This document shows, piece after piece, positions 5,291 through 53,729 of a stretch of DNA of 64,000 nucleotides. Source of the DNA: Branchinecta lynchi (taxonomy: Eukaryota > Arthropoda > Branchiopoda > Anostraca > Branchinectidae); the NCBI GenBank assembly GCA_023053575.1, contig JAKZAP010000020.1:19525998-19589997 (forward strand), written 5' to 3'. The notes below the pieces were generated by a model, which worked only from the letters and a program-made list of their open reading frames with translations, ran no database searches and was not told the DNA's origin. Position 1 is the first letter of the stretch. The number at the start of each line of letters is the position of its first letter. Position numbers and translations under genes: made by a program.

Positions 5291-8200
5291 CTGTAAGGAA
5301 CATGTAAAATAAATAAACAGGAAAATTGGCCAAAGTTCGTTCCCAGCCCGGTCCGATTCCCAGCCAAATTTACTGTCGCTTAAACTGCATTTGGCCGAAA
5401 CATCATTCCGTTGTAGCACGTACGTGACTCCTTATTAGGGTGACCACTGATTGGCCGCTGATCAATCCTTGCCAGTGACAAACATAGAGATATTCTGGCC
5501 GATCTAGCACTGGCGACAGAATGGACACGGCACCAAATCTCCTGGTGCCAGTTAAATGTCGCACTAACCGCTGTTCCAGTTCCTTTGTACCATATTGTAC
5601 TGAGAAAATTATCAATGTAATAATTGTATATATTCAACTATTTTAACACATTAAATGTAATGGTCTTTTATTTATTTTATTTATTTATTTAATAATAAAG
5701 CAAAACATATCTCTCGTGGGCAGAGCCCAAATACGATGTTTGTGTAGTCATAAATAAAGTCATAAATAAAGATAAAATAAATTGTCAACAGATAATTTAA
5801 AAGGAAAAAAAGTAACAAGGCAGAACAATGTTAAAGAGCATTGTACTGCTTTACGAAGCTCGGCACAAAGCTTCTACTGTAGCGCATAGTGTTACAGTAG
5901 ATTGGGGTCAGTTTGGGAACCTTTTCAGCCACTTCTCGGGGGGGGGGGGCGAGATCTTACAGGAACAAAGGGTGGGGGAAGGAATGAACGGTACATGGGA
6001 TGGTGGAGAAGGGATGAGCCAAAGTTGCGGCATAGTTTTTCGCGGCGGGAAGAAAGGGATTCAATTTTAAATTCTTTAAGGTAAAAAGAGTATGGTAGGG
6101 GGGAACCGCCATAGATTATTTGCAGCGATCTCTTCTGAACTCGCTCTATTTTATCAGTTTCGTCTTGGGTAAGAGCAAAGTGCCAAACAGGACAAGCATA
6201 TTCGACTAAGGGTCGGATGAAAGAGCAAAACATTAGCTTTAGCTTGTCCTTAGGAACCCGAAACTTTTTCAGTGTTTTTAGCATTTGAATTGCGCTGTTA
6301 GCTTTCTTTACAACTGTCTTTGCATTTTCATGCCATGAAAGGTCAGAAGAGATCACTACACCTAGTAGCGTTATTTTATCCCTGATGAGCCCAGGGTCGA
6401 TAGGAGGTTCGTAAGACGGCCGAGTTTTTCTAAGAAAAGAAAAGGTCGTAACCGAGCACTTATCTTTATTCACGACCATATTCATTTCAGTCGCCTCTGA
6501 GGTAACCTGGTCGATGAAACCGGCAGCGTTACTTTTGAAATCCTCAGATACGACTTCCGCTAGGGACAGGTTGTCAACGTATTTCCATCTGTCCTGCAGC
6601 CCAGCAGCAATTTCATTTCTCATGAGGATGAAGCACAGCGGACCGATCACAGTTCCTTGTGGAACTCCACAAAAAACTGGTGAAGAAGTAGAAAAATGGC
6701 CTTTATACTTTACAGTTTGCTCTCTATTTGTCAAGAAGCTCTTGATGGTTTTGACGATAAAATCGGGTATATTTTTTTCCGCCATTTTTTCGAATGTATT
6801 TATGGAATGTCGATGTATTTACTGCCATGGGCGCTACGAGTTAGATCAATAAAAATATCTATCTACCTATCTGTAAGTGTGCAAAGTGTATTGTTGTAAA
6901 CAGTAACTGATAAATATTCCTTGAGCCCAAGCTGACTTTGAAACATATATTCAAATAATAGATAGAGCGGATACTAGTGGTATTTAAAAGTAACTGATTG
7001 CAGGTTTGTTTCCTTCCCCGACGTTGCCCCTTAAGATTGACAGCGTGACGAGGACTCGTGCCAAGAAGGGCCGGAATATCGCTGCTAAAGCATCGTAGCT
7101 GACGTATCCGTTATATGCATTATTTGAATACAAGTAGCTGATATGTTTAGTTGGGAGAGATGCATCAGCTAACCTCTTTTTTCTATTAAAGTTTACTGAA
7201 AAGGGCTGGGATAGGACCCATCACCCATCACTTATTCACTTAAATTGGCTTGAAGACCCGCCGAAAATGCGTTACTTCGTTGTTCCGCTATTCACGAATA
7301 ACTGATTTTCAAATAGTGCAATTTCCGTGTGATTTGTGATACCTCTATGAGCTCATATCTGTGTTGTATACCTTACCAGAAAGATTTATGATTTTCTTGT
7401 GTTCAGACACTAAGCAGTCTTCACCAAGCCCACCACTGCCCACCACTGCCTACTGAAAAGCCGCGTCTGTGTTGAAATTAAAATTTCCCGCATCATAAAT
7501 TTATTTTAGTACTCCTCACTATATATTCTTTGAGGGAAATAAATAAATGAACGAATGAATAGTAGAATTTACGTTGTGGAGACGGCCGCAGATATTCTGA
7601 ATGGCATAACTAGAGCAGATAGTGGAAAATAAAAAAATCCCTTAGCAGAATCCAAATTATTCAGTGGGGTGAGTGGGGGTGTGGGGTAGGGGGAGGTGAG
7701 ATGGGGGGCGGTGGGTAGGTTGTGACGAGGGAATCGTTTTTGTTTCTTTTCTCTTTTTATTACTCTCTTTCTTTACCTCTTTTTTCTTTTTTCTTTGAAA
7801 ATATATTAGATTAGTTTTTCTGTTATTATTTATTGAATAATTTTATGTTAAACGGTGGTTAGAAGATACAGCCACCCACAGGATTTTTTGTCTTTGATGT
7901 GGTTGTTTAGTTTTTTTGTATAATGTAGTTATGTTTTTTTTTCGTGAAGTAAAAAAGAGTCTAAATCTGTAAAATCTGAATCTCAAATCTCAATCTGAAA
8001 TTCAAATTAAATGACACAAAAATAAGTTGGGTTTTCAGTTAAACTTTAATAACTAAATAAATAATATTGCTTAAAACGAACAAGATGAACTTGCAAACCC
8101 TCTGCTAAATCAGGCAATATCTGATCATCAGTCATCGTTCAGACCTGCGGGACAAGCTCTCACGCCGGCTGTGTATTTACGTCTCCCTTTCTCGGTTTCT

Positions 8201-11200
8201 TATCCTGAATTCTCGTTTCTTTCATCATTAGTAAGTTCTCTTCATCGTTAGGCCTCAACGTGTCAGTGTGAAAGCGGCTTAAATCCCTATACCCTGTCCG
8301 GTGTAAACGAGCGGACGGTAGGAGCTACGTGGGACGTCGCAATTCTACCTCTACAAATAACTATATCGCAGTAAAGCATCGGAGAAGAAACTTCCAAAGT
8401 AAAAGCCGATTGGTTGTCTGGACCCGCTACAAAGCGGAGAAGAACACCTCCTGCACTTTTTCCTCTGATACGCACAGCCGCGAAGAGGAAGCACACGGGC
8501 AGCAGACCAAAGCTCAGCTCATCCATAGTCGCTATACTTCTGTCCGATGTGTGGGTGCGTGGATGAGAGTGTGATTCACATGTTTTGCGATTGTATTGAG
8601 TTGAGTGAATGGAGAAAAGAAGAGTATGATGTGTGCGTATTTGAAGAATGGTTAAACCGAATTTTTAAGGATGAGTGTTTTGCTGCTATAAAGAAAATGG
8701 GGCGATTTTTGAGGCTAGCGATGGAACACAGAAGTAGATTTTTGAAATAAGTAAAACAAAATTAAACGGAAACGAGTATTATTATATGTTAGTGTTTTTT
8801 GTTTTGTTGTTTTTCGTTTGTTAAATTTTTACCATGGCCCTCGTGCTGCTTATAGCAATAAACTATCTATCTATCTATCTATCTATACTGGAAGTTGAAT
8901 CGCCGTATACCTAGCGGAAGAGCCGAAAACACAGCTGTCCGAACGCCCTTTATTGGTTGACAAACAGGGTCATCGTCATCGTTCGGGCAACGTTTCTCGT
9001 TCTTCCCGAGGTTCCTTGGCGTTTTTTGGACAGTGCGAGGGGTCCTTTACATAAGGCCAAATCAACTTTAGGCGTATTCTCGCCGTTCCCCGAGGACTCC
9101 TCGTATCGAAGGGAACGGCGAGAATAGAGGGAGTCACTCCACGCGGACTCCGCCTCGGAAAACAAGGAGAACACGGGGAATGCTTCTAAAATAGATTTTG
9201 TTCTTTAAAAAAATATGCAGCTGACAAAACTAGTCTTTTTTGTTTTGTTTTGTTTATTCTCATTCTTTTTAATTAATTTTACATGCACCAACACCAGCAA
9301 AAACTGATTCCCCTCCGAATATGAAAGGGAGTCCTTTTTGATGATGGTGATGATAATCGGAGCATTCCCCGTCCGTGGGGACTCGCGAGAATACGGGACT
9401 GAGTCCCCGGGACAAACAAAAACGCAGGGACTCCTCAAGTGGAGTCCTCGGGGTACGATTTTATGCACGCAACAGCAACATGGATGACCCTTTTGATGAA
9501 TGATGATTCACTTTTAGAATTTTTTTTTTTTTTTTATTATTTTATTTATTTAAGGGTTATTTTTAAATATTTTAATTATTTTTCGCGTTAAATTCTGTTG
9601 CCGACGAAAATTCAGTGTGAGCATCCAGGCGATAAAGATCTTCTGCCGCTGCGATTGAAAAATCTCGTCATCGCCGCGATTTGCTCTGTATGTACCTAGG
9701 GTAAGACTTTCGAAGGTCACTTTCCACTGACGTCGTGAGTTCGCTTTTCACAACAATTCGGGTCGCGTTCCGAAGCTAGCAGAGTGCCAAAACATAGACA
9801 AATACAATGCTAGAACAAGGCCATCACAATAATAAAAACAAAACAAAAAAGTAGCCCTCAACGCAAAACGGCTTTGATAAGATAAGATAAATAATATTTA
9901 ATTGCACAAAAAGCCAAAAGGCCATGGCAAAAAAAAAGAAAAAAAGATCTATACAGTAACCTACATACTCTAGGCATAATTTTCGGTGATGAAAAGCGAC
10001 CCTGGGGAATCTTGCCAGCCTCCTCAAATTATCACATCTTTGGAAAACAAAAAATAAGCCGCCAGGCAAACCGACTGGCGAGAAAAAAACAAAACCAAAA
10101 GGCAATATCAAACGTCACTCTTACCTTTGCGTTAAAGACTGTGACGTAAGCTGTGAAATCTCCAGTCAGAACTTCCATGGCCTTTAGTGGGTCGTTCTGT
10201 TTAATCGCTAGAGCTGCCAAAAAAACGGTCGTTCGTCTGGTCAAGACGCCACCAGCGTTTACAACTTCGTCGACAATCTGCAGTCCACGTTTGTAGCTCT
10301 CAGGGGTGTTCTAAACATATAATAAAAAAATTGAATGAAATAAAAGCTGAAAGCTCGTATGGCACTTGTAGGAATAGTTAGCATGTTTGTCAGATAAGGT
10401 TTGTAGTTGTCAAGGTCGGATCTCTCTCCCGATATTCCTACAAAAATCGGACATCAGCTGCTAGAAAAAAACCCAGCTGCCTCTTCAGAGATTGTAATCT
10501 TGGATTTCACAGAACCCAAAATACTTTGCTGTCTTACCTAAACTCCGGAAAGATAAAAGCCCAAATCAGTACCAAAGAGGCATTTATTCAATACCCTGTG
10601 ATTGCGGAAAGCGTTACGTAGGAAGGACAGAGAGAACTTTCGGAAAACTAGTTCCAGAACATGGACAAGAAATTGACCATGCCCTATCCAACGGACACCG
10701 CCATAACTATACTTTCAAATCTGCAGTTGCAGAACATATTCTCGAAAACCCATCCCATTCAGTATATTTTGAAAAAGCCCAAATTCTTGCAACGTGCACC
10801 GGACTCCATCAAACTATTCGAGAAGCCGTTGAGATAAAAAAAAAACAAGAGCTACGAGCTCATATGGCACTTGATACGGTATGTGGTACCTGAAAAGTAG
10901 ACAAGAAATCCAAATACCCCCCCCCCCCATCTAAAAATGCGGTTCGGACCTATAAATACGATATCTAGATTCACTCAAGTCTGAGCATTTCCGTCGCCTC
11001 GGTAACTAGGGCAAATGACTTTTCTACCTTTCAAGTTTCAACCTTAAAGATCCACTCGTTCTGATCTTTCACATGCCACACGGTTTCCGGCACACCCTCC
11101 AACATCCCCTACCGAGTTCGAATCTGGTTCGGACTTCGGACTACTAAACGAATCATCTGAAGCATTATCTCTTACCACCTATCAAGTTTCACTTATATCT

Positions 11201-14200
11201 GAGCGTTTTTTGGGAACTCCCCTTAAATCTTCCCCCCCCCTCTCCCCCAGCGTGGTCGGATCCAGTTCGGACCCTAAAATATGTCATCTAGGGCATGTGA
11301 GCTGTCTAAATTACAAGTTTCACTAAAATCGCTCCACTTATTTGATGCCTATGACAGGCAAAACGATCAAGTCCCCCCAATGTGGCTGAACACGAATCGG
11401 AAACATAAACGTCACATCTCTGGCATATCCTAATGAAGCTAGACTGGAATCAGAGCATAGCCTATCCGCAAATTTCCAGTTCCCACTTCACCCCCCCCCC
11501 TCCCCTACCGTGACCAGATCCGATCCAGACACCAAATTACAAATCAAGCCCGCATTAACTCGGAACCGTCCAACTTGCATCCCATTGTCTACCCCCCCCC
11601 CCCCCCCCTCGTCCAACTCTCCTTAACGTGCTTGTATTTGTGTTTTGCTTGTGTAGGTCATCAGTTCTTATCGCACATAAAGTTTTCACACGAATCGGAC
11701 AACCGTTCGCAACTTACGGAAGCCAGTAATTTCCAGATTCCCCTTCCCTCAACTCCCCAAAGATGGTCGGATCCAGGAACACAAACTTTCCTACGGCATT
11801 ATGTGGTGCCTTAAATCATTAAAAGGCCTGCAAAGTTTCATCGTTCTTAGAATAGCTGGAACTATCCTAACTGGCGATCCGAGGAATTCCGGGAAACACC
11901 CTCCAACTCCCCCCACAGAGCCCAGATATGATCTGGTTCTGTCAATTACGTATCTAAGGCTAATGCTTGTTCTTCTCACCAAGTTCCACCCCAATCCCTC
12001 GACTCTAAACGTTCCACGAGATCTCCGGCCCCCCTTCAATCCCCCCCACAAGTATCTGATTCGACCAGGACTTGACATGGGACATCTGATATGATAGCTC
12101 CTTCCACTTGCCAAGTTTCATTCCATTCCGATCACCCGTTCAAAAGTTATGCATGCCACCAGATTCCGGGCTCCCCATCCCTCCACTCCCCCTACGGTGG
12201 TTGGATCCAGGAAACGACTATTATCAAGTCAATCTGTTCGGGTCCCTGACATGTCTTCGAGTTCCATTGTCCTAGCACATTCGGAAGTACCGAACTAGCA
12301 GGATCACCAAAATTCCCGACGCACCCCCCCCCCCCCCCCCACAGTGCCCGAATCTGGTCCGGTTATGTCAACGATGTGTCTAGGACTTGGGCTTGTTCTT
12401 CCTACCAAGTTTCATCCTGATCCCTCCACTCTAAGAGTTTCCCAAGATTTCCGGTTCCTCCCCTCCAGCTCCCCCCAAAGTCACAGGATCCGGTTCGGAT
12501 TTGAATTGGGTCGTCTGAGACACGGCGTCCTTCCAAATATCAAGTTTCATTAAGATCCGATCACCCGTTCAAAAGTTATGAATACCTCTATATTCCAGAT
12601 TCCCCCTGCCGCCACTCCCCCCACGATGCTCGGATCTGGGAAAGTGACTATTTCCAACTTAATCGTTTGGGGTCCCTTGGGGTCCCCCGGGATCGGGTTC
12701 GGATTTAAATTGGGTCGTCTGAGACACGGGGTCCTTCCAAATATCAAGTTTCATTAAGATCCGATCACCCGTTCAAAAGTTATGAATACCTCTACATTCC
12801 GGATTCCCCCTGCCGCCACTCCCCCCACGATGCCCGGATCGGGGAAAGTGACTATTTCCAACTTAATCGTTTGGGGTCCCTAATAAGCCTGCCAAGTTTC
12901 ATCTCCTAGCTTATGTGGAAGTGCCCAAACTAGAAAAACCTGGACAGACCGACCGACGGACGGACAGAAACTGCGATCGCTATATGGCACTTACCAAGCA
13001 GGCATTAACCGAGATACAGGCGACTACTCCCTGCCGGAAACGTGGAACGGGGTTATTAAGAGTAGAAAATTCAAGCATCAGTCCCTTATTAACAACAAAA
13101 CCGAAGTCGATCAAAATGCCGAAAAATACATTTCCTGTCGTCGCCCCAATCGTGCAGCAAAAACAGCAGCCGTGTCAAGAATTAAATCTAGCACTAGTTT
13201 TTCCGTGCAGTGATTATTACAAGTAATAGATACAGGCGAGTACTCCATAATAAAAACGCAGAACGAGGTTATTAATGAAAAAACATTTAAGTTTTCAGTC
13301 CCTTTTTAAATAACAAAACCGAAGTTGATCAAAATACAGAAAAAAACTTCCCTGTCAACGCCCCAATCGTGCAGCAAAAACAGCGGCTGTATCAAAAATT
13401 AAATCTCAGGACTACGTTTTTTTCATTACAGTGGTATTTGAAAGTAATTTGCCCTAATAAGATATTTATAGTCGGTACAAGTTTCAGTTATTTATTACAG
13501 GTTTGTTCCCTTTCCCGACGTTGACCCAGAAGATTGATAGCCTGACGAGGACCCTTGCCAAGAAGGGCCAAAATATCGCTGATGTATCTGACGTATTCGT
13601 TGTAAACATTGTTTGAATATTTGACCGGATTCCGGGCGAACTACTTGTCCGACGAGAAAATTATTTTTATACAGATGTTCAGCATTTCTTCTTACCTCTA
13701 AACCGAACATCTAATCAACTTCAAATAAAACTTTTACTTTTCATAAAGTTTCCTGTTCTGACCGGATTCCGGGTCAACTACTTGTCTGGCGATAATTCGT
13801 ATTCTGATGTGTTACGTGAACGTTGTGTTTGTGAGTGCTATTTTGTGTTTATGTTACTTTCCTACCATGGCCCCACGGGCTTTTTTGAAATAAATTAATT
13901 CATTCATTCATATTCGGATTCAGCATGTCCTCTTACCCCAGATCGAACATCTAATCAACTTCAGATTTAACTTTTACATTTTACAAATTTTCCGGTTTTT
14001 GCTGGATTCCAGGTGAACTACTTGTCCGGGGAGAAAACGATTTTCATATTCAGATTCAGCGTGTCTCCTTATCCCTAATTCTACTATCTCATTAAAAATA
14101 TTTAGTTTTGCCCCTTGATTTGAAACCCCTCCCGCACCCCTAATATATATATAGCTTTGGGGCCCATCTAGGATCTCAATCTGTCCCCTGACCTAAAGAA

Positions 14201-17200: not shown

Positions 17201-20200
17201 CTTCAAGCTCGGGCAGCTGAATTAAAATATTGCATAATGTATACTCATTCCCCAGGTATGTATTTCTGGTGTAGAGAGGGAGTCGGAGGAGAAACTTCAG
17301 GTACTTGAAGAAAGCTGATCTAATCTGTAGTTTCTCTGTATTGGATAGCCCATTCCATATTATTTAACTTTAACCATCCATATCGATGGTTAAAGTGATA
17401 AAGGTAGGAAGATTCCTTAAAGGACCTGTCTTACCTATACTAATAACGCAACCTACTTCCATAATCACTCCATATATTTCTAAATCCGGAGACCGAGTTT
17501 CGTGCGGTACATTCTAACTAACAAAACCACGCTGATTTTCTCTCTTAACTTATTTTGCCTTCGATGTGTATCACGCTGTCGACGGATGTCAGCGAGAAGT
17601 TTTTCCATCAGAAAAAACGGTTATGGTTCCACAGTTTTAAAGTATTCAAATGTTTTAAAATACTGTAAGATGAAGCTTTCCTTTAAGCTTTCGATGAAGC
17701 ATCGAGAAAGGTTTGTTTAGTTGGAATTTGGCAAAAAGATAATGTTTATTCCAACAATGGGGAAGGAAACAAACCTGTAATCCTGTAATTTTTTATTACA
17801 GGTTTGTTTCCTTCCCCGAAGCTGAACAAGAGGACTGACAGCCTGACGAGGACCCTTGCCAAGAAGGGCCGAAATATCGCTGATGAAGAATCGTAGCTGA
17901 CGTATCCGTTGAAAACATTGTTGGAATAAATGTTTCAAAGTTAGCTTGGGCTCAAAGAATATTTAAAAAGATAATGTATTTTTGTCTTTTGTTTTGTATT
18001 GCCATGGCCCTCCGGCTTTTTGTGCAAATATATAGCATATCATATCATATCACACAAGAGAGCAGATTCAGATTTCCTTCAAAGAGTCTATACGACTACT
18101 AACATTTTCTGAGCCGACGGATTCCAGCAGAAAGCCTGCGAGTTTTAAAAGGGGGAGGACCCCTACTCTTTCGAAGTCGTTACTGTCACAAATCAAGGGG
18201 TCAAGCGACAATTTTCAAAATGTTCGGGAGACCCTTAGCCTCTTACCCCCCACATCTAATCAACTTCAAATAAGACTTTTACTTTTAACAAAATTTCCGG
18301 ATTTGGCCGGATTCCGGGCGAACTACTTGTCCAGCAAGAAAATGGTTTTCATAATCGTGTTCACCTGTCTTCTTATCCCTTGTCGACCAACTGATTAGCT
18401 GCTGAAAATATTATCCTTGCCCTTTAATCTGAATCCCCTCCCCCGCCCCTAAATGTAGGGCTACAGAGCCCATCTACGAACTCGACCTTTCCCTTGGCCC
18501 AAAGAATCATCACACCAAGTTTCATCAAAATACCTCATTCCCTTCGAGGGTTATCGTGCTCACAGACGGACAGACAGACGGACAACTTTTGCGATGTCAT
18601 AGGTATCCCTCGAAGAACATTTGATTTTTTGTATGATGATTTGCGTGTCGCTTAGCTCTTTTTGACCGTTCTCGTGGTGGTTCGATCTTTTGAGCAAATT
18701 ATGTATCTTGAGAACGGCTTGTTTTTTGTAGTTTTTTTTTCAGTAAATGCAGGAGCAAGATCCATAGCCCTAGTTGTGTTTTTGCAAATACTACCTGCAA
18801 ACCCCAAATTGATACCAAGGTCTAAAGTCGTTTTTGGAGTTACCGTGGTATCTGCTGTAGGCTAGTAGTTACCGTAGTATCTGATACTCAGATACCATGG
18901 GCCCGACGATGGTGCCCGAAAAATCCATCTTACTTTCACCATCACCAACACAAGAGCCTAGGTTTTCTTCAACGAGTTGGTGCGCGTATTTCTTTTGGGG
19001 TGACTCCGGAAATCGCAGATTCGGCAGCTGTCATTTTTCCAAAGTAACCGTATAGTATCAGATACCATGGTAGCTGCAAAACAACTAATAACTCACTTTC
19101 ACAAAAATGTCGCTTGACCCCTTACTCCGTGACAGCGACAAAGTCATTCCTGTTCTTCCTTCACTGCAGCAATGTACCCAACGAAGAATACATCCTATCT
19201 TTGGACGCCTTGAAAATATCTGGGTCACGGCATTGGGAACCTGAGCCCCGTTTTCGTTGCAATAGCGCTGCCGCATCGCTGCTGCAGAACTTCTTTGCTT
19301 TTGCACAATATGCGTTTTTGGGTTCACTTTCTTCTTTTTTGAAGCGGCAGCGCTGCAGCACCTTGCAGGGAAGTACGGACTTGGTCGGTGAACAAGTCCG
19401 TGATTCTCGAGAAGCGCTGCCGTCTTCCTCGGAAGCACTGCAGTGCAAAAAAGGATGTAGGAAGAATCAATCCAATCGGCCGAGAAGAGGACCTGCAGCA
19501 TGCAACAAAAACGAGGCTCTGGGCAGCAAGAGCCTATCTTTCAGTTGATTCACGATACTCCTGATGAATAACTCTGCACGTCCATGAAGAATCGCCGGGT
19601 ACCCACCGACGGGCCAGAAAGGTCACAATAGCAAACGTCCATGATCGGTATACAGGGGATCCGAGTCAATCTGAGAGATATTCCTTCAGCCCAAGCTGAC
19701 TGCGAATCATATTTGACGGTCCAAAACGGAAAAGTCAGCTACATTTTATGAGAGCTATATTTCGGCCCTTCTTGGCAAGGGTCCTCTTCAGGCTCACTCG
19801 AGCCGCTCAAGCTGGAAAATGAACTTCCAAGAAGGGCTGAAATATAGGTCTAAAAAATGTAGCCGACTTACCTGTTTTGCACCGTCAAATACAATTCTGA
19901 GAGTTCGTTTCAGTGACGTTTCTTGTTCTTCCCGAGGTTCACTGGTGTTTCGGACTTCGTCATGTCATATAAAATATTCGCCTAACACCTATAATGCCGA
20001 GTCAAGATTGTGCCGTTTATAATAATAATAATAATAGATTTATTCCCCATCATAGTGCACAAATATACAAGAAGACGGAGTAATTAAATAAAGAAGAAGA
20101 AAAAGAACAAAGTAAGAAATGAAAAAAAAAGAATATCACTGTCAAAAACAATAATGGAAAGAACGCAAGAAACTTATTTGCTCGGCATTATGGCGGTCGT

Positions 20201-26400: not shown

Positions 26401-29400
26401 CTGGATGCGTTTCCCCCGACTTCCTCATCTTCAAAACTGTTCGAGGTTCGAGGTATTTCCTTCCCTTTCTTTTCAGTGTATTTTTCTTCTATTTTGGCCG
26501 TTAATATCTGTCTGTATGTGTAGTTTCTTTATGCTTGTAATGCGATGAAACTAACGTAATGTGAATATAATCAGTGTAGGTTAATGTATAGGTGGTGGAT
26601 CCCCAACAAGATAGCTTCAGGGGGTCTTGTTTCTTGCCTTATATTTATGTTACGTAGTTTATGTAGTACGAATAACTGAATAAATGGGGTTAGCCAAACT
26701 GGCCTCATCATGTTTCAAAATATCCAAGCCGACTTACTTTTTACACAGCCTAAGAACAGTATCCACATCCTCTTGTGAGTCAGAAGCAAGGTGAATAAAA
26801 CTTTTGAAGTCGTCAATAAACACGGGATTCTTCGAATCTGATTGAACTAAGTCTCGTAGTTTACTCTTAAACTTTTCCACCATAAGACCACCACTGTACT
26901 GGATGGCCGTCCGCTCTCTCTGTTCTTTGTATTTGTTGACACCCAGGCTTTCGGCTGTGTACAGGGTTCTCATGCCTGAAAATAGCACAGTCAAAAGTTA
27001 GTCGCAGGAACGGTAATCTTAAAGGACGCTTCATACTTGTAATACTAAGTCATCCTACTACAGTAATGTTCTCGTAACCGAGGAAAAAAATTCGATGGTT
27101 TTGGATAACAATTGCGCAAACAATGCGAAAGATTTGCGAGGAAGCAGTCAAATCAGCCGCTAAAGGAATTAGATTTGGTTACTGCAAAATTGGGCCGAAC
27201 TGTTCGAGGTATAGCAGACCTGGGCTTGGGAAGTTACCGTATATACTCAATTTGCGCACCGTATGTTAACTTCCTTGCTGGATTACATTCTATACTCAGA
27301 AAAAAGGACATTCGACGCATAAATCGAGGACCTTCGACGGGAAAAGAACTGTTAAAATGCCCGGATACACACTCGACGACAAGATTTTTAAACTCCTACG
27401 TGTCATACTCATACTACGTGAAGCACTCCAACGACAAGATCCTCGAATCGAAGTGATAGCTTATCATGTGTGTTCTTCTTGTTGCGTCTTTTGGTGTTAT
27501 TCTCTTCTTACTTGTTTGACGTTACCCATGATCTTGTTTGACGATATCCATGTTACTGCACTGTGATAAAGGGAAAGAATAAAGATTATTATTATTATTA
27601 TTATTATACGCTCGACATACATCAGATATCTCAGATATCTTCTCTACCTACGACGGCGCACGCAGAACCGCTACCTGGTCCGCCGTTTGTTAATTTCCGA
27701 CCCATCGTTGACGCTTGAAGCCCTCTCCTCTAATTTGTGTTCTCCGATTGGAAACTGACCTGTCCGCGATACCATCAATGTGATTCTAAATTAGTGAACC
27801 TTTATGGAAAATATTTTTTGAGTGTTTTGCGACCATTTATACTTCTTTGTCCTTTTTCTAGTGCACTTAACGCCCTTGGGCAGTGCGTCGTAAAGCATTC
27901 ATTTATTATTCAGTAGCATTTCGATCCATTCTTGTTCAATTTACTTGCAGGTCGAAGTACAGTACGCCGAGGGAAAGAAGTTGAAAAAAAATATATAGTA
28001 TATCACGAGGAAAAAGGGAACGTTTTTAGTCAAAAGTGTGAAATTAGAAAATAAAGTTAAGGCCGGGATGGAATTGTCCATCTTGGCCGAAGGACAGGTG
28101 CGACAAATTCTACACTTTCAAGTTACCAATGAGGTTATTACTCTTTACTTCCGAGGTCCCGCGATGGACCTTTCGTTGCCGGATCAATGTCGGTACTCTG
28201 ACCGTGGCTAAACCCAACTTGCGAACATAACGGTAGCGTGCGAACGGGGGAATTTCTCGATTCTTCAAAGGCGTATTTGGGATCGTAGTCTTTCGTTTGG
28301 AAGTTCGAGCTGACTTACTTTATTGATAAATTAGTATCACAAAATTCCTAATTCTTCACAACTGCTTTTCTTTGGCTTATTTCTAACTCGCTTCTCAATT
28401 TATTATGCCTCAAAACCGCTCTTCAATTCCTGCTCTCCGTTACCACAACTACCGATACTGCACCACAAAATATATTCTAGAAACCTCAGTACCGCTTTAC
28501 CATCGGGTTGTTTTTATACGTAAGAAATTAAATTCTGCAAACAATTGGGGCGCAAATTTTTACGGAAGAAATACAGATTAACAAAATTCGCATTCAGCGC
28601 TTAATTCAACTTATTCTGGGTAGAATCGCTGGAAGCTTCGCTTTTTAGCTAAAGTTGAAACGAAAAGGCGAATGTGTGAATTTAAACATTCGAAATTACA
28701 TTAAAGGAATAACCTGAACTGACGCATTACAATTAGTTTTACCAAAAATTTCGCCTGCATTTAGTTGGCGTTTTAGGATTAAAAAGAAGTAAAATATATT
28801 TAAACCGATAGAAGAACACTTCTTCTTGCATATAATAAATAGAATAAAGATAAATATTCTTTGAGCCCAAGCTGACTTTGAAACATTGTTTGAATAAATA
28901 GAATAAAGGATAACCTGGGAAGAAATTAAAGTTACAAGAAATAAAAAAGAACATGAAATTCAATCTAAAAAGATTTGGTAACTAAAATTAACAAGGTTAA
29001 ATGATAAAAGTAAAATTGAATCCGATGATCCGTTTTAGGATTTAAACACGTTAAAAGCTAAAACTTGTATGCTAGGTATAGCAAAATGTTTCTGGAAAAA
29101 AGGCGGATTTACAAAATTTCGCCTGCAGCACTTTTCTTATTCTGGGTACAGCCGTTGGAAGCTTCGTTTTTTAGCGAAAGCTGAAACGAAAAGCCAAATA
29201 TGTAAACTTTAATATACGAAATTACATTAAAGGAATAATGTTAACCGATGTCTTACAGTTAGTTTTACACCGGTTCTATTCTATGCTGGTGGGAAACGTC
29301 CCTCTCCCCCCCCCCCCCCCCCCCCCAGGTAAAAGGCTAGTGACGCCCCTGGTCGCCCCCCTTAGGTTTCCGCAAAATGACGCCATTGCTTTCAAGCATT

Positions 29401-29960
29401 TATTTATTTAAACTTCCGCTTTAAATCGATCATGTACCATTGCACCAACATGCAATAATGAACTTCTGAAAAATAATTTGGGCCAAGTTAAGAGAAATGG
29501 GTTTATGTATACTTTCCAAAACTGTCCTGACTACTGAGGGAAAATCCCCAACAATCCCCCAAATCACTTTCAAGCATATAGATGTTCCTTCAGCCCAAGC
29601 TGACTACGAATCATATTAGACGCTGCCCTTCTTGGAAATGGTCCTCTTCAGGCTCAAGCCGCTCAAGCTGGAAAATGAACTTGTGAAAAACAATTAAAGA
29701 TTCTTCCGATTTTGTGAACCCTTGCCAAGAAGGGCCGAAATATATCTGTAATAAAATGTAGCTGACTTATCCATTTTGCACCGTCAAATATAACCCTTTC
29801 AGGCAGTTATTTATTTAGACATTAAGTGCAAAAATATCAACATACAATGGTACATTTTTGACAAGTAATTTAGGGCAAGGTTCCACAACTTACACTGCCT
29901 TCTTAGCTCCAAGCTTGCTGTCTTTGAAAGGCTGACTATTGTCCTCGATGAAGCAGTCAT
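5066..29960 (-). CDS. PTCD2: PTCD2-like mitochondrial pentatricopeptide protein, spliced gene (6 exons found, 3' end missing)
   Basis: Six minus-strand exons (29960-29894, 26975-26738, 22266-22164, 16968-16774, 10310-10125, 5290-5066) all have AG acceptors and GT donors and join in one open frame of 1014 coding bases (338 codons). The product matches the order of conserved blocks I know from PTCD2: a mitochondrial presequence, a charged helix with VDTVLRLCKKYEDARKT, NFTFGPIIMRYFHLNG, FRVLMDLLFEKAMYNEVLGI, LALAACYKLNTPESYKRG, and a C-terminal helical region. PTCD2 is a mitochondrial matrix RNA-binding PPR protein linked to processing of cytochrome b transcripts. Vertebrate PTCD2 is near 390 residues, so about 50 codons remain downstream of the donor at 5065; I could not identify that exon. 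Introns of 2.9-6.5 kb are filled with transposable elements. Identity is strong; the last exon is the open question. Confidence 0.85.
5670..6815 (-). pseudogene. LINE reverse transcriptase, 5'-truncated
   Basis: A 286-residue frame (6785-5925) holds FCGVPQGTVIGPLCFI (motif B), YVDNLSLAEVV where YADDLS would be expected (motif C altered), and the thumb RPLVEYACPVWHFALTQ and IERVQKRSLQIIYGG of CR1/L2/Jockey-type elements. The 3' UTR (5670-5825) is repeated at 59.95-60.11 kb. Loss of the YADD motif and the 5' truncation mean it is inactive. Confidence 0.8.
6810..6885 (+). repeat. LINE 3' end with ATCT tail
   Basis: gccatgggcgctacgag hairpin followed by aataaaaatatctatctacc. Same architecture as at 8.83 kb, inserted against the 5' truncation point of the LINE on the other strand. 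Confidence 0.5.
6905..7150 (+). mobile_element. Hammerhead-bearing repeat, copy 1 (degenerate)
   Basis: Contains the family's ends (ttgagcccaagctgac at 6922; tgcaggtttgtttccttcc at 7000) and a mutated ribozyme. Ends near 7127 at cattatttgaata. Confidence 0.65.
7041..7084 (+). ncRNA. Hammerhead-like motif, degenerate
   Basis: Stem I CAGC/GCTG is kept, but the core reads GTGACGA and GGAA instead of CTGACGA and GAAA. Predicted inactive. Confidence 0.55.
7460..7560 (+). repeat. LINE 3' end, ATGA-type tail
   Basis: tactcctcactatatattc then ggaaataaataaatgaacg; closely matches 22.92-22.98 kb. Confidence 0.5.
7560..8100. other. Low-complexity intronic stretch
   Basis: G-rich (7660-7720) then T-rich (7740-7960) sequence inside PTCD2 intron 5. 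I see no gene or recognisable repeat end. Confidence 0.4.
8262..8535 (+). mobile_element. TIR element of the 'GAACCTCCG' family, 3'-truncated
   Basis: Shares tacctctacaaataacta, gccgattggttgtctggac and cctcctgcactttttcctct with the complete copy at 22.3-22.7 kb. The LINE fragment begins where it stops. Confidence 0.55.
8540..8890 (+). pseudogene. LINE C-terminal Zn-knuckle fragment, (CTAT)n tail
   Basis: Encodes MCGCVDESVIHMFCDCIELS, then MGRFLRLAMEHRSRFLK and a stop. The 3' end has ACCATGGCCCTCGTGC at 8831 and (CTAT)n at 8864-8886. Confidence 0.7.
8893..9060 (+). mobile_element. Short MITE of the 'GTTCTTCCCGAGGTTC' family
   Basis: gcggaagagccgaaaacac, cagctgtccgaacg and tctcgttcttcccgaggttc recur at 19.9 kb, 23.1 kb (minus) and inside the TIR element at 37.9 kb. 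Confidence 0.5.
9057..9466 (+). mobile_element. TIR element, CTTTAGGCGTATTC ends, copy 1
   Basis: Left end ctttaggcgtattctcgcc then ttccccgaggactcc; right end ggactcctcaagtggagtcc then tcggggtacg. Other copies are at 34.07-34.49 and 38.80-39.17 kb. Confidence 0.6.
9820..10030 (-). pseudogene. LINE C-terminal fragment and 3' end
   Basis: The minus strand encodes DNLRRLARFPRVAFHHRKLC, matching the RKVARFLRVGLSHRERF tail at 14.4 kb. GCCATGGCC hairpin at 9919-9925 (as its complement) and a CTTAT-type tail at 9876-9890. Lies 95 bases from PTCD2 exon 5. Confidence 0.6.
10125..10310 (-). CDS. PTCD2: PTCD2 exon 5
   Basis: Acceptor TTTAG before 10310, donor GTAAGAG from 10124. The 62 codons begin NTPESYKRGLQIVDEVVNAG and continue GVLTRRTTVFLAALAIKQND, then DPLKAMEVL; the CYKL-NTPESYK junction with exon 4 reproduces the PTCD2 pattern. 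A LINE C-terminal fragment lies about 95 bases downstream in the next intron. Confidence 0.88.
10498..10893 (+). pseudogene. Penelope-like element GIY-YIG endonuclease fragment
   Basis: A 131-codon frame without an ATG reads KYFAVLPKLRKDKSPNQYQ, then GIYSIPCDCGKRYVGRTER, then ALSNGHRHNY, AVAEHILENPSH, FEKAQILATC and TIREAVEIKK. GIY, Y-V-G, the following Arg and the spaced Cys pair are the start of the GIY-YIG endonuclease domain at the C terminus of Penelope-like retroelements. The RT part is absent upstream, so this is a 5'-truncated remnant. Its last codons run into the left end of the next repeat at 10845. Confidence 0.85.
10845..12990 (+). mobile_element. Pyrimidine-rich long repeat, copy 1 (diverged tandem units)
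   Basis: Begins acaagagctacgagctcat atggcacttg and ends in gaccgaccgacggacgg with gcgatcgctatatggcac. The body is diverged copies of the 281-bp unit at 55.7 kb, each with caagtttcat...gatcc and ccggattcccc blocks. No coding capacity. Confidence 0.7.
13000..13440 (+). repeat. Two tandem units of about 205 bp
   Basis: aaccgaagtcgatcaaaatg, ccccaatcgtgcagcaaaaa and aattaaatct recur about 205 bases later. A related single unit is at 50.66-50.77 kb; in both places the hammerhead-bearing repeat follows directly. Confidence 0.6.
13470..13620 (+). mobile_element. Hammerhead-bearing repeat, copy 2
   Basis: agttatttattacaggtttg start, cattgtttgaata end. The ribozyme core has one substitution. Confidence 0.7.
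13538..13581 (+). ncRNA. Hammerhead motif, one core mutation
   Basis: Stem I TAGC/GCTG (with one wobble), CTGACGA, stem II GG-CCCTT/AAGGG-CC, but AAAA where GAAA is required, then TATC. Predicted inactive. Confidence 0.6.
13625..14330 (-). mobile_element. GGATCC-type repeat, copy C, with a LINE tail inserted
   Basis: Minus-strand copy: gaccggattccgggcgaac, catctaatcaacttcaa and the GACGGCAGACGGACAAC tract near 14260. A LINE 3' end (13800-13915: accatggccccacgggc, then ATTC repeats) interrupts it. Confidence 0.55.
14334..14690 (-). pseudogene. LINE C-terminal Zn-knuckle fragment, (ATTC)n tail
   Basis: Encodes YFCPMCGKVDEDVFHFMC, ECEGLSDLRVELFG and IRKVARFLRVGLSHRERFL plus stop. The best-preserved copy of the CxxC...HxxxC module here; tail ATGAATGA at 14334-14358. 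Confidence 0.75.
14690..14850 (+). repeat. LINE 3' end of the ACTCCGC...GGCGGGT type
   Basis: ttactccgccaccaccttg, ggcgggttacaaataaaat; a GGATCC-repeat terminus (cttacgttttgggatccc) follows at 14850. Confidence 0.5.
15351..15545 (+). pseudogene. LINE RT thumb fragment
   Basis: Open frame RKLIIARTDKKLRGAYASLF, then NISKKILAKFYNAVALPHIP and FRASFWDIVNATDKSYE to a stop. Matches the region after motif D of non-LTR RTs (cf. L...LYNAVVLPHILY); assignment by resemblance. Confidence 0.5.
15550..16760. other. Intronic sequence with an old repeat
   Basis: 16190-16215 duplicates gcgcggcgcggaggt. 16228-16750 is flanked by tcagtgtgaaag-like and gtgtaaacgtagc-like ends and is probably an eroded MITE; a long plus-strand ORF in it lacks recognisable domains. 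Confidence 0.35.
16774..16968 (-). CDS. PTCD2: PTCD2 exon 4 (PPR-like repeats)
   Basis: Acceptor ATTTCAG before 16968, donor GTAAGC from 16773. The 65 codons begin AFSDPDNLGLFHQFTTFRVL, continue MDLLFEKAMYNEVLGIFDVV and end TLALAACYKL, giving paired amphipathic helices typical of PPR units. A long open frame on the opposite strand (16261-16941) overlaps this exon and is taken as spurious. Confidence 0.88.
16976..17345 (-). pseudogene. LINE fragment with (ATTC)n tail
   Basis: On the minus strand FFKYLKFLLRLPLYTRN-like sequence (17300-17130) followed by the 3' end ttactccgcccattcctc and ATTC repeats at 16978-16994. Confidence 0.5.
17745..17964 (+). mobile_element. Hammerhead-bearing repeat, copy 3, with 12-bp target duplication
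   Basis: Flanked by aaaaagataatg at 17733-17744 and 17965-17976. The left 60 bases are inverted partial copies (tttattccaacaatg and gggaaggaaacaaacctgta) of the element's own end and start; then a full copy from attacaggtttgtttcc to cttgggctcaaagaatat. No ORF. Confidence 0.85.
17839..17882 (+). ncRNA. Minimal type I hammerhead ribozyme (intact core)
   Basis: Stem I CAGC (17839-42) pairs GCTG (17879-82). Core CTGACGA 17843-49. Stem II: GG..CCCTT (17850-57, A17852 bulged) with AAGGGCC (17864-70), loop GCCAAG. GAAA 17871-74, then TATC: the last A with TAT forms an ATAT palindrome, the one- or two-pair stem III typical of PLE/retrozyme hammerheads. Predicted cleavage after C17878. Confidence 0.75.
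18235..18615 (-). mobile_element. GGATCC-type repeat, copy D (partial)
   Basis: catctaatcaacttcaaat, gccggattccgggcgaac, and ggacagacagacggacaac then gcgatgtcataggtatccc on the minus strand. Confidence 0.6.
18780..19080 (+). repeat. Repeat with GTATCTGATAC/ATACCATGG ends
   Basis: gatactcagataccatggg at 18882 and tagtatcagataccatgg at 19053 suggest a short element; related words recur at 33.0 kb. No ORF support. Confidence 0.35.
19553..20015. mobile_element. Composite of short repeats with inverted hammerhead-bearing element
   Basis: 19675-19895 is subfamily B of the ribozyme repeat in head-to-head form: a minus-oriented copy (tatttgacggtccaaaacgg) and a truncated plus copy (gttttgcaccgtcaaatac). 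19900-20010 is a copy of the GTTCTTCCCGAGGTTC MITE. Confidence 0.65.
19752..19795 (-). ncRNA. Hammerhead motif, subfamily B, intact core
   Basis: On the minus strand: stem I GAGC/GCTC, core CTGAAGA, the same stem II with GCCAAG loop, GAAA, then TATA (UH = UA). Stem I differs from copy 3 (CAGC/GCTG) at a paired position on both strands. Confidence 0.7.
20020..20110 (-). repeat. LINE 3' end with (AAT)n tail
   Basis: aataataataataatagatt then acggagtaattaaataaag; minus-strand orientation. Confidence 0.45.
20505..22068 (+). mobile_element. 'GAACCTCCG' TIR element interrupted by a GGATCC repeat
   Basis: Left part 20505-20790 (agaacaaataatgacaagaa, tacctctacaaacag) and right part 21895-22068 (gcgcaacggcgaagagg, aaagacggaggttctata) are the two halves of one element, matched by the whole copy at 22.3 kb. 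Confidence 0.65.
20793..21895 (+). mobile_element. GGATCC-ended repeat, copy B (full, several internal units)
   Basis: Starts tttttgggatcccaaaacg, ends ttttgggatcccacgaaacc then tttggtcttgtt. Four to five internal units of about 95-110 bp each carry ggacaagtagttcgcccgg, aatccggccaaaaccgg and gttgattagatgttcgattt. Confidence 0.7.
22164..22266 (-). CDS. PTCD2: PTCD2 exon 3
   Basis: Acceptor TTTTGTAG and donor GTAAG bracket 103 bases. The encoded YEDARKTLRFSNFTFG then PIIMRYFHLNGKPAEALQ is a classic PTCD2 signature block. A TIR element starts only about 33 bases upstream of this acceptor, in intron 2. Confidence 0.88.
22299..22706 (+). mobile_element. 'GAACCTCCG' TIR element, complete copy
   Basis: TIRs: aagaacaaataatcaggtag aacctccg on the left, cggaggttctatctgac then ttgtttgtatgt on the right. 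About 400 bp, no ORF. Sits 33 bases from the acceptor of PTCD2 exon 3. Confidence 0.7.
22895..22985 (+). repeat. LINE 3' end with ATGA tail
   Basis: tactcctcattatatattc, then aaataaatgaatgaatga. Confidence 0.5.
23130..23310 (-). mobile_element. 'GTTCTTCCCGAGGTTC' MITE, minus copy
   Basis: aactctatatgac on the left and gtagagtaag on the right, with aacctcgggaagaacgac inside; related to the insert in the 37.8 kb element. Confidence 0.5.
23490..23924. mobile_element. TTAA-flanked TIR element, copy 1
   Basis: GGACACCTGAA...TTCAGGTGTCC between TTAA at 23486-23489 and 23925-23928. Homologous along its length to 40112-40554. TTAA targets are typical of piggyBac and Kolobok; no transposase here. 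A 26-A run precedes it. Confidence 0.7.
24060..24520. repeat. Diverged repeat related to the CTTTAGGCG family
   Basis: tcaattctgagaaggggttt and gatgatgaccatgatgatcg recur at 26.10-26.26 kb and resemble the centre of the 9.06 and 34.07 kb elements. Confidence 0.4.
24560..24830 (+). pseudogene. LINE C-terminal fragment, (CTTAT)n tail
   Basis: RSFEDIRNLGRFLKVAII and stop, then ccatggccctttgtgctt and CTTAT repeats at 24798-24816. Confidence 0.6.
25347..25651. mobile_element. MITE with GAGCGTGTTCC TIRs, copy 1
   Basis: 305 bp, nearly palindromic at the ends, flanked by ACA on both sides. Inside, GTTACTATTAGTTACTAT blocks repeat in both orientations. Confidence 0.8.
25690..25875 (+). repeat. LINE 3' end
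   Basis: atactccgtcctaattcc with gaattttcgggtattaag, the ACTCCGY hairpin type. Confidence 0.4.
26738..26975 (-). CDS. PTCD2: PTCD2 exon 2
   Basis: Acceptor TTTTCAG precedes 26975 and the donor GTAAGT starts at 26737. The exon encodes MRTLYTAESLGVNKYKEQR, a GGLMVEKFKSKLRDLV helix, an FIDDFKSFIHLA segment and EDVDTVLRLCKK, the N-terminal helical part of PTCD2 before the first PPR-like repeat. It ends two bases into a Lys codon completed by exon 3. Confidence 0.85.
27450..27607 (+). repeat. LINE 3' end with (ATT)n tail
   Basis: gttactgcactgtgataaag then aataaagattattattatt. In PTCD2 intron 1. Confidence 0.45.
28550..29290 (+). repeat. Two direct units 550 bp apart in PTCD2 intron 1
   Basis: cttattctgggtagaatcgc, ggaagcttcgctttttagc and cgaaattacattaaaggaat at 28.6-28.7 kb recur at 29.13-29.25 kb. 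The word cgcctgcagcac also appears at 59.94, 60.24 and 60.44 kb. A poly-C run of about 20 follows at 29307. Confidence 0.5.
29583..29810. mobile_element. Hammerhead-bearing repeat, subfamily B, degenerate
   Basis: ccttcagcccaagctgac at the left, ttttgcaccgtcaaatata at the right, with two broken ribozyme halves in inverted arrangement (29621-29655 minus, 29710-29745 plus). It lies between PTCD2 intron 1 sequence and exon 1. Confidence 0.6.
29894..29960 (-). CDS. PTCD2: PTCD2 exon 1 (start codon, mitochondrial presequence)
   Basis: The ATG at 29960-29958 follows an in-frame TAG in the upstream sequence, so it is the first possible start. Its 22 codons begin MTASSRTIVSLSKTAS and end LELRRQ: basic, rich in Ser and hydroxylated residues and without acids until Glu18, as expected of a mitochondrial targeting peptide. 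The donor GTAAGT at 29893-29888 leaves one base (T), which with the GC opening exon 2 makes a Cys codon. The phase match across a 2.9 kb intron is the main support. Too short to be noticed as an ORF. Confidence 0.7.
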
Positions 29961-40800: not shown

Positions 40801-43800
40801 AAAATATTAAATTATTTAGTTTCATAATTTCACAAATCGTTATCCTCTTTCGTAATTTTTTTTTCTCTTCGTTCTATTTACTCTGTCTTCGCGAGTGGTG
40901 TTTAGTTGTTTGACGGGTCACAAGTAGATTTTATTTCACCCGAAGCTGACTGCGAACAAGGCCGTATCCAGGGAAACCTACAAAAATAACCATTTGTATA
41001 GGCTTTTCCTTCTGATCTATGTGTTTTTTGTACTTTCTGCCTGACCCGCAGGCGAACCCCCCCCCCCCAAAGGGACCCCCCTCCCCCCCGAAATAAATTT
41101 CTGGATACGGGCCTGACTGCGAATCATACTTGACGGTGCAAAACGTATACGTGTAGCTGACATATCCGTTTTGCACCGTCAAATACGGGTCACAAGTAAA
41201 ATCATCATCACTATTTCAGGATGTCCAGATCTGTGAAGACCTTTCAAACGTCAACCACAGTGCATATTCTCAACAAAATACAAATATGACAGGAAAATCC
41301 CATACCCCTGTAGAGCGTACAGTTTCAGCCATAGATGACGTAGTCGTAGACCCTGGAAAAATAATACAGGGTTCCAGGTCATGGCATGGAGACCTGAAGG
41401 ATGAAATCTTCGTATCGGACAGAGGTAAGATATCACCTTGAATCAGTGTTGGACACTATTTGGATTTTTCAGTATATCAATATTTTCACCGAGATTCGAT
41501 AACCGATTTAATCGATATTTCGGTACCATGTTTGGCTATAGTATGCGACTGAATTTCGCCAAAATTCAATAGCAAAATTGTCATAAGAAAGCATTTTACA
41601 TGAACTCAAACTACGAATAAATTACAACTGAATTACCAAGAACATATTCTCCAATTTCGGTCGTATAAATGTAATATATGCTAGATTATTTACAATAATT
41701 ATAATGAACAAATATCGTTTTCGATATCGATATTTACGTTTTGATACTGGATATCGATATTTGGTCCGATTATTCGATGTATCGTTGTCGATATCGAATA
41801 TCGCCCAACACTACCTTGAATGTGTGGCATGCTTTTTCTCCTGCTGTCGTCCAAAACTGTAAAAACCCATAGCGCACAATTTCAGCTATATTTGGTTCAG
41901 TTAGTGAGCAAGGTTACACACCCTTCATAAAATCCCTTCAGATTAGTTATTTTTGGCCGCTAGATGCGCTAGCATAAAGTAAACACTGACACGTTACTTC
42001 TTGGTTTGGTTGTACCAGGTTTGTTTGTCTATTTTCAATTTAAGGCCTAGCCATTATTTAAAACTTAACTTAATTCCCTCTGCTTCTATTTGCGCTGTGC
42101 CAAACTCTGTTCTGCAAAACCTGCAGGTTGAGGTTTCCACGGGGCTGATGCGCGACTCGGTATATGAAGCGAAAGTCTAATCGCTTATTCCCCATTTATG
42201 CCTTGGCCGCACGATCAGGGTTGGGTGCACCCGGGCTGGAATTCTGCCCGGAATTTCAACACCATCATCACTTCCATTTGGAAAAGTTGAAATTTTTCAA
42301 CTTTGCGATGAAAGAGAAGATAATCCGTCCGGAAATCCTTATCGTATGTTCGCACTTTTACATGATCTCATGTGCGATAGTACTCTATCTAACACCTTCC
42401 CGTAGGTCAGATAGCCTGCTAAAATTGGGGAGCAGAAGCTGGTATAGCAACTGCTAAAAGATGCTATCCAACCTAGGGAAACCTATTGTTCCAATACGCT
42501 CTTTCTCAGTTTCACTGTCTTTTTTTTTCTAATAAAGGGGCCCATTATTTGTTTGTATGTTATCACCGGCTCTTCGCTGACGTAACAGGAGAACCAACTT
42601 CCTTCGTTCCTAAACAAAGAATGTCGGCTATCCGCCCTGTCGCTGTCGGATAGTTCTCGCATCGAAAAATTACCAAATAATGTCAGTAAATTCTCTCACC
42701 GAATTCGTGATAACTATACCGAATATTAGCAATTATGCCGAATCCCGATCATTATATCGAATGGATTTGCACCGATAGCCCATTTGGGATTCAGTATAAC
42801 TACCGAATCCCAGTAACTATACCGAATGGTTCTGCTATCCCAAAAATACTGAACAATCTTGGGACCAAAATTTTACCGAATCTCGAAAAGTTAGGGGGGG
42901 GGGGTACTGCACCCCCCCCCCCCTTGCGACGCCCCTGCCTATAGGTCCAAAGTACCCTGTCGATGACGCCAATGCGAACCAAACCAAATTATTCCATCAC
43001 TATCGATGCTTAGTCCTCGAAGAAATTGACTTTTGGATAGTTAGGTAAATGTGGAATATTTATTTGGAATTTTATTCAAGATGAATGTTTCTTTATTATT
43101 ATTACTGAATGAGGGTTGGGTTGGGCGGGGGGGAGGAGAAAAAGAAATGAGAAGGTTAAGACGAGGAATGTGCGTCATTCTTTGTAATAGGTGAGTAAAA
43201 AGTTGTGCACTCCCACACAGGACACGGTTGTGCCCTTCTTGGGAACAGAGTAAAATAACTCTAGAGAGTAATGCGAAGACTTATCCTTCCCGTGCATCAA
43301 AAATGGGCCTCTGTCGCAGCGCCGCCCAACCCACTTTGTTCGTGCGTGCAGTGGCGGACGTAGAGAATTCTAGCAAGGCTATGATGCGGTGCTGGTTGAG
43401 TTTCAGTAGGGATGTTCGTGTCCTTTAGGGGAGCTAGTGTCGCTGCGATTTGACTGTGTGGCACCTCGGGTTCTTTTCATACGCAAGAAATAAAATCCTG
43501 CAACTATTTGTCGGGTAAAACACAGAAGAAATCGAATTCTGCATGCTTTTGTCGGGCCTCGGTATTGTCGTCGTCACATGATGTTATTTTTATAAATAAG
43601 GAATATATAAGAAATAAAATTGTGTATGCTTTAGTTGGGCGCCGGTCGACTCGTCGGCACATCCTTACTGAAACTCAACCAGCACCGCATCACAGCCTTG
43701 TTAGAATTCTCTACGTTCGCCACTGCACACACGAACACAAGTGAGCTGCTGGGCGGCGCTACGACAGAGGCCCTCGTCTTAACCACTTTTTCAAAGTTCT

Positions 43801-50935: not shown

Positions 50936-50944
50936 TTTATTTAC

Positions 50945-53480: not shown

Positions 53481-53519
53481 ACTTAATTTAATAAGATATT
53501 TATAGTCGGTAGAAGCTTC

Positions 53520-53650: not shown

Positions 53651-53729
53651 GATAACACAAGGATGCGCTGTTTCAACAAATAACACTTGGGATGTTAGCT
53701 GTTGAGTTTTTTCAAACGTTACATATATG

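Follow-up and report, generated by a model that had tools for sequence, protein, structure and literature searches.

Hammerhead-bearing repeats of Branchinecta lynchi, very probably pseudo-LTRs of a Penelope-like element, and the paired unlike ends of their head-to-head insertions

Short repeats with a hammerhead ribozyme motif are scattered over the 64,000-nt stretch of Branchinecta lynchi DNA analysed here (the window), which raises the question of what element they belong to and how they were inserted. A first-pass annotation of the sequence had taken them for a small non-autonomous retroelement, with a ribozyme fold described for Penelope-like elements (PLEs) and metazoan retrozymes, which moves as ribozyme-processed, possibly circular, RNA. 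Our analysis leads to a different parentage: very probably they are pseudo-LTRs (pLTRs) belonging to an autonomous PLE, whose minimal hammerhead they carry. The PLE family, the ribozyme and the gross architecture of the insertions are already known. In the open-licence PubMed Central literature we found no statement of the exceptionless pairing of two unlike ends, A and B, described below. Published views of the route of PLEs from RNA to insertion include self-priming and internal initiation. With its many short, well-bounded insertions, this genome offers a sequence record of where synthesis starts, how arms are paired, how junctions form and which target duplications result.

Hammerhead copies and the probable parent element

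A pattern search allowing up to three mismatches found eight scattered copies of the hammerhead repeat in the window; none of 100 shuffled sequences contained the motif (0/100). The copies start at 7041, 13538, 17839, 19752 (minus strand), 50843, 53390 and 53561, seven positions already listed in the first-pass annotation and all genuine, to which we add an eighth, partial copy matched at 29717–29741. The copy at 17839–17882 folds as a minimal type I hammerhead with a 4-bp stem I (CAGC/GCTG), a 7-bp stem II that has a bulged A and a GCCAAG loop, and AUAU alone in the place of stem III; GAAA is followed by TATC or TATA in the window copies. This is the composition of minimal PLE hammerheads, i.e. 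a CUGANGA and GAAA core with stems I and II and without an internal stem III. The earlier reading as a minimal type I fold was thus correct, as were the length and loop of stem II and the bases after GAAA, the bulged A being an addition. As to the proposed ATAT stem III, the AUAU is present but loop-less and cannot form a stem within a single molecule, although it could pair with a second copy.

The core bases are complete in four of the eight copies (17839, 19752 on the minus strand, 53390 and 53561), and among these only 17839 and 19752 (2/4) have a perfect 4-bp stem I. A core common to all seven listed copies, as claimed previously, therefore holds for these four and fails for 7041, 13538 and 50843. 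The accompanying remark that dead copies are damaged at essential bases holds, because 7041 (GTGA and GGAA), 13538 (AAAA) and 50843 (GAGA) carry core changes and the copy at 29717 has lost its 5′ half. Table 1 lists the insertions to which the copies belong.

Table 1. PLE-derived insertions and their parts in the window
Feature	Position	Strand	Details
Complete insertion	17745..17964	+	Tail arm 17795-17964 and inverted short arm 17745-17781 with internal deletion
Target duplication of 17745..17964	17733..17745 (left), 17965..17977 (right)		12-13 bp, AAAAAGATAATG(T), read from sequence
Intact minimal type I hammerhead	17839..17882	+	Stem I 17839-17842/17879-17882; stem II 17850-17857/17864-17870; AUAU 17874-17877; predicted cut after C17878
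PLE tail	17931..17964	+	RT start site B to site A, first ~11 PLE ORF codons
Truncated PLE copy, predicted GIY-YIG endonuclease part	10505..10848	+	94% to L065; open frame 10498-10893
Same PLE copy, ORF end, 3′UTR and pLTR to site B	12993..13619	+	88% to L065; hammerhead 13538-13581 in pLTR, GAAA changed to AAAA; target duplication not clear
Head-to-head insertion, one A and one B end	6909..7130	+	Hammerhead 7041-7084 damaged; no clear target duplication
Subfamily-2 head-to-head insertion (A/B)	19677..19897	-	Intact hammerhead 19752-19795; 8-bp word TCTGAGAG common to both ends
Mini-insertion	28849..28899	-	~35 nt from site A and ~15 nt from site B; no ribozyme; duplicated AATAAATAGAATAAAG
Subfamily-2 head-to-head insertion (A/B)	29581..29791	+	Forward hammerhead, 3′ part only (29716-29743); no clear target duplication
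Short subfamily-2 insertion, inverted arms	41113..41185	.	End resolved on one side only
PLE 3′UTR and pLTR	50665..50938	+	Hammerhead 50843-50886 damaged (GAGA)
Two pLTRs in partial tandem, 171 bp apart	53346..53653	+	Hammerheads 53390-53433 and 53561-53604, core intact, stem I weakened

The window also holds an open frame that we take, from its motif, to be GIY-YIG endonuclease-like (10498–10893). Searched in the genome, it gave 1703 candidates, of which 150 places were scored. At these places open frames including the endonuclease reach 868 aa, several being of 863 aa; neighbours within 7 kb comprise 26 head-to-head pairs, no tail-to-tail pair and nine same-strand tandems, the latter with a spacing of 3018–3020 bp. 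Ten of the 26 head-to-head spacings cluster at 2345–2645 bp (e.g. C3:22646723 and C13:10873154); within this cluster the split between the arms varies from pair to pair, as judged by frame lengths.

One tandem, with a 3,019-bp spacing, provides the locus L065, where the end of the endonuclease, a stop, a 3′UTR, a pLTR and an ATG at site B follow each other. Its pLTR (169 bp) is 94% identical to the window arm and has an intact hammerhead (80.3 bits), and the frame after the site-B ATG is open to the end of the piece. Reckoned from the 3,019-bp spacing, 863 codons separate this ATG from the stop that follows one unit later; site B is therefore the start of the ORF and the tail its first ~11 codons, the junction of pLTR and ORF being known from this one locus and the ORF having been read piecewise.

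The reverse transcriptase (RT) and the endonuclease are predicted from homologues. An RT piece from the same tandem (L066; 400 aa open) matches 266 proteins; among the 120 of these that were listed most carry PF00078 together with PF28514 and two carry PF01541. The C-terminus of P0046, a protein in which PF00078 and PF01541 occur together, is 43% identical over 63 aa to the L065 endonuclease, and the homologue search with the window endonuclease returned one unnamed protein. Direct Pfam scans of the two endonucleases (window and L065) and of the L066 RT piece found no GIY-YIG or RT domain; NCBIfam gave for the RT piece a weak match to the RT model Drt3a (21.8 bits, cut-off 200), and the PDB sequence search gave no match for the endonuclease piece and two matches with E near 0.8 for the RT piece.

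Two marks of PLEs are thus seen here, an RT and a GIY-YIG endonuclease in one ORF (in homologues of the L066 and L065 pieces) and tandem copies with pseudo-LTRs (nine pairs, with the order of parts read in L065). The annotated link to PLEs agrees with L065, in which a pLTR with its hammerhead is continuous with the PLE ORF, and the repeat is indeed a dispersed retroelement. That it should be a separate small non-autonomous element is not supported, since an autonomous PLE of this genome has the repeat as its pLTR, hammerhead included.

In the window, the match of the truncated PLE copy to L065 stops at the end of the 10505–10848 part and resumes at 12993, with ~2.1 kb of other sequence between. 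In the partial tandem at 53346–53653 the second pLTR starts ~46 nt 5′ of ATTACAGG and abuts the B end of the first, as though one of them had inserted at the other's end.

The closest counterpart is PAc, a Poseidon element of Anolis carolinensis (PMC11167929), which likewise has a stem I/II hammerhead near the ORF start, tandem copies, a tail defined by two adjacent internal RT start sites and an integration reaction in which both target strands are cut and extended. PAc differs in its layout, since the ORF of the present element begins only after the ribozyme, at site B. Animals are reported to have thousands of minimal type I hammerheads, mostly dispersed and some of them in PLE pLTRs (PMC7761336). 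The minimal PLE hammerheads (Cervera and de la Pena 2014; Lunse et al. 2017, via PMC7761336) are, like ours, dispersed and without helix III; the repeat described here would be a further family, judged by its bulged-A stem II and GCCAAG loop.

Unlike ends of head-to-head insertions

Dispersed copies usually begin at a 5′ point ATTACAGG and end at one of two 3′ points, either B, the ORF start codon, or A, 34 nt further in. A search of the same assembly (575.7 Mb, 216 contigs) yielded 1885 candidates, of which 40 places, picked by likeness to a tail-arm query, were scored. Since the query held the tail arm, a tail on one arm was selected for, while its absence from the other arm was not. Of these 40 query-selected places, 30 have complete palindromes, their arms head-to-head with the junction at or near ATTACAGG and fillers of 0–74 nt; the remaining 10 have single, truncated or internally deleted arms, or extend upstream past ATTACAGG (L038, L039 and L040). 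All 30 palindromes combine one B arm with one A arm. In the 29 elements that were measured (L015, which is in the set of 30, is left out of these measurements) the ends lie at arm positions 132–143 (B) and 168–170 (A).

Systematic sampling of 10 kb at 5.00 Mb on each of 20 contigs (200 kb in all) gave 23 clusters of the repeat, 10 of them head-to-head; both ends were resolved in five, all A/B (5/5). The window together with L043 and L044 contributed seven resolved pairs (7/7 A/B), and three pairs that include ORF sequence, examined at the outer ends, were likewise A/B (3/3), with 11–12-bp duplications. In total, 45 of 45 pairs are A/B, with no A/A and no B/B pair; the 34-nt tail on one of two inverted pLTRs, seen in 45/45, corresponds to the 30–40-bp tail by which PLEs are recognized. 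This count leaves out head-to-head clusters with one unresolved end (five in L045–L064 and one in the window), L037, L038 and L039, which have one A and one B end each and failed the filter for complete palindromes, and L031, whose second arm ends at position 116 and thus at neither A nor B. The adjacent arms L043:7540/7859, a subfamily-1 B arm by a subfamily-2 A arm, were not scored as a pair, and L030 is outside the 30 palindromes. L002 and L030 (G000:C1, ~9 kb apart) have the same target duplication AGCTAGCCCCT and similar flanks; because of this likeness they are probably one insertion duplicated with its surroundings.

Target duplications in the 29 elements are short, 6–17 bp with a mode of 12 bp, as is usual for PLEs. 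In 23 of the 29 they are at least 9 bp long, while 2000 random flank pairs give 3–8 bp, so that the other six do not exceed the 8 bp reached at random. A target motif around the duplications of 23 elements amounts to no more than a weak preference for T/C two bases beyond the duplication on the tail side.

The two arms of an element diverge by 1.86% as against 4.91% between arms of different elements, a difference reached in none of 20,000 permutations, and the nearest arm is the element's own partner in 19 of 30 elements. Both arms thus usually come from one RNA or from close sister RNAs. Arms are not especially alike in L007, L025, L011 and L022, of which L007 and L025 are clear exceptions. 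An origin of the arms always from unrelated RNAs is rejected by the same likeness within elements. The junction fillers take 28 distinct forms in 29 elements, the coinciding two being empty; palindromes have therefore formed anew, and their transposition as ready-made units is rejected.

What reaction would leave one A end and one B end each time? We tentatively favour, with a confidence that falls a little short of even, an obligatory asymmetric two-strand integration, in which the subunits of a PLE protein dimer would prime the two staggered-cut strands on one RNA, one at A and one at B. The protein would cut both target strands ~12 bp apart, and each target 3′ end would prime reverse transcription inside the RNA, on the same RNA or on a sister RNA. 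Both cDNAs would run towards the RNA 5′ end, taken to be ATTACAGG, and short-homology annealing or snap-back would unite them head-to-head into an inverted repeat flanked by target duplications. RNAs starting in the pLTR would leave only short dead-end copies, and longer tandem RNAs would give copies with the ORF. We infer the two-strand priming, the dimer and the RNA start at ATTACAGG, together with the processing role of the hammerhead discussed below. If the reaction is as proposed, each insertion is born head-to-head with exactly one tail, and the tail marks which subunit primed which strand. The one-A-one-B rule is a sharp prediction for purified PLE protein, and makes PLE integration testable.

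The main rival for the origin of the palindromes is self-priming, in which a single cDNA begun at A would form a hairpin at its 3′ end and serve as its own template; we regard it as possible though rather unlikely. It would account for the likeness of arms within an element, and it is favoured for rotifer Penelope elements in PMC3846280. The fillers fit it as well: symmetric extensions of at least 3 nt, as expected of snap-back, occur in 7 of 23 usable fillers, against 0.47 expected from shuffles. However, it leaves unexplained why the second arm stops constantly at B in every counted case. Moreover, the mini-insertions at 28849–28899 and L064:3487–3571 resemble a pair of short cDNAs of which one came from A and the other from B, and the two arms are not always truncated at the same point (L038, L039 and L049).

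Published insertions offer partial parallels. In vitro, no difference between the strands in start site was seen for PAc (PMC11167929), whereas the genomic pairs here have one A and one B. Penelope elements of the rotifer Adineta vaga have head-to-head inverted pLTRs with a 31-bp tail on one of them, 8–10-bp target duplications and junction palindromes, as found here (PMC3846280). They differ in being of low copy number, whereas ORF-less palindromes are common in B. lynchi, and the word hammerhead is absent from the main text of that study (PMC3846280).

Predicted cleavage, fold and abundance of the ribozyme

If cleaved or circular RNA were the template, arms should begin at the cut. Among 147 arms, one begins within 2 nt of the first base of the 3′ cleavage product: 1/36 in the 200-kb sample, 0/25 in the window with L043 and L044, and 0/86 at the 40 places, where arms had been selected by likeness to a full-length query; the insertion at 17745–17964 is counted in two of these sets. 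Most arms start upstream of the cleavage site, at ATTACAGG (exactly so in 25 of 29 arms of each kind) or at scattered points. Cleaved or circular RNA is therefore not the usual template, although circles may exist. At the 171-bp tandem of 53390 and 53561, the only one in the window, an RT start site is joined to a truncated 5′ end, unlike the continuous join that a circle would give. Movement as ribozyme-processed or circular RNA, as first annotated, thus found no support in either the arm starts or this join. The counts agree with PAc, in which mutation of the ribozyme leaves insertion in vitro unaffected (PMC11167929).

The wider form of that idea is a metazoan retrozyme, a small non-autonomous element: its hammerheads cut the oligomeric RNA, which is circularized and then copied back by a PLE enzyme. 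Retrozymes likewise have type I hammerheads in short repeats, PLEs are their proposed helpers (PMC7229834), and the window has one 171-bp tandem pair. Ribozymes of amphibian retrozymes also are without clear helix III (PMC7761336), so the missing stem III does not exclude a retrozyme. We nevertheless consider this reading very unlikely. The repeat runs on into an autonomous PLE ORF in L065 and hence does not stand apart from a coding element; inverted copies in head-to-head order are frequent (30 of the 40 query-selected places and 10 of the 23 clusters in 200 kb); and multiple tandem repeats of 150–450 bp, typical of retrozymes, are represented by that one pair, all else being single or head-to-head. 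Published retrozymes form tandem arrays and circular RNA, with canonical ribozymes in the coral (PMC7229834), whereas the copies here are pLTR insertions of an autonomous element, often inverted. A retrozyme moving as circular RNA is rejected on this architecture and on the 1/147 arm starts.

As to what the ribozyme of the PLE does, the position of the hammerhead between the RNA 5′ end and the start sites means that cleavage would part the two. Its role is most likely the processing of tandem transcripts, not the making of the inserted template; for this it may dimerize by AUAU pairing or be assisted by protein. Minimal PLE hammerheads may self-cleave as dimers (PMC7761336). Two short arms (17745–17781 and L037) lack the ribozyme region through an internal deletion, as might result if the enzyme had skipped the folded RNA.

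An Rfam covariance-model search, the check by which the first-pass annotation had been prepared to see its ribozyme refuted, gave no hammerhead match in the window, whether gathering thresholds were applied or E was allowed up to 10, and none in 17800–17960 searched by itself. Minimal type I hammerheads without helix III are, at the same time, known from PLEs (PMC7761336). Covariation in the seven window copies alone is not significant, being reached by 65 of 500 shuffles. A covariance model built from these seven copies and searched over the window and 22 other stretches (23 sources) produced 34 matches at E up to 0.0001, the model's own seven included, of which 32 are distinct. In the 32 distinct rows of this alignment, which leans towards the structure as it was fitted to the window-copy model, 91.5% of the cells are paired, compared with 86.9% after shuffling (0/500 shuffles reach this value). 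Two-sided changes occupy 15 cells, compared with 7.3 (again 0/500); 12 of the 15 sit at the outer pair of stem I and divide two subfamilies, and the number of pairs with a two-sided change, four, is reached by 16 of 500 shuffles.

Variability in 48 arms of 24 elements amounts to 1.1% in the core, 2.0% in stem II and its loop, 5.5% in stem I and 2.8% in the rest of the arm. The statement that only outer positions drift fails because of stem I, which varies at twice the rate of the remaining arm or nearly so. A hammerhead likeness due to chance or low complexity, to which the Rfam result, the variable stem I and the lack of significant covariation in the seven window copies could be credited, is extremely improbable given the absence of the motif from shuffles, a core less variable than the rest of the arm, the paired changes over 32 distinct copies and a neighbourhood, by the ORF start, that is shared with the PAc hammerhead.

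The 200-kb sample has 25 hammerhead motifs at E up to 0.1 and 24 at E up to 0.01 with the window-built model; a strict pattern finds the core kept in 11 of the 25. One motif per ~8 kb extrapolates to about 70,000–72,000 in 576 Mb, a crude figure, with one position sampled per contig, elements clustered and old copies counted. The PLE has probably seeded the genome with tens of thousands of copies. The axolotl genome is far larger than this one. Published counts are up to 120,000 retrozyme copies in axolotl and, for hammerhead motifs, >6000 in the coral Acropora and about 5000 in the mussel Mytilus (PMC7229834).

Other features of the window

Several further features lie in the window. Another reverse transcriptase fragment, which we take to be probably of a LINE, is on the minus strand at 5925–6818 (PF00078, E 4e-9). 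A tRNA-like sequence at 3546–3618 (Rfam, 36.2 bits; uncalled by ARAGORN in its bacterial setting) could be the head of a SINE. A long inverted repeat at 54126–54225 (minus strand) is hairpin-precursor-like, with a mir-616 score of 31.4 bits, far below the gathering score of 100. Satellite-like tandem repeats occupy 55677–57646 (281-bp units) and 12486–12881 (204-bp units); the two are related to each other, and the latter sits in the sequence interrupting the PLE copy of 10505–13619.
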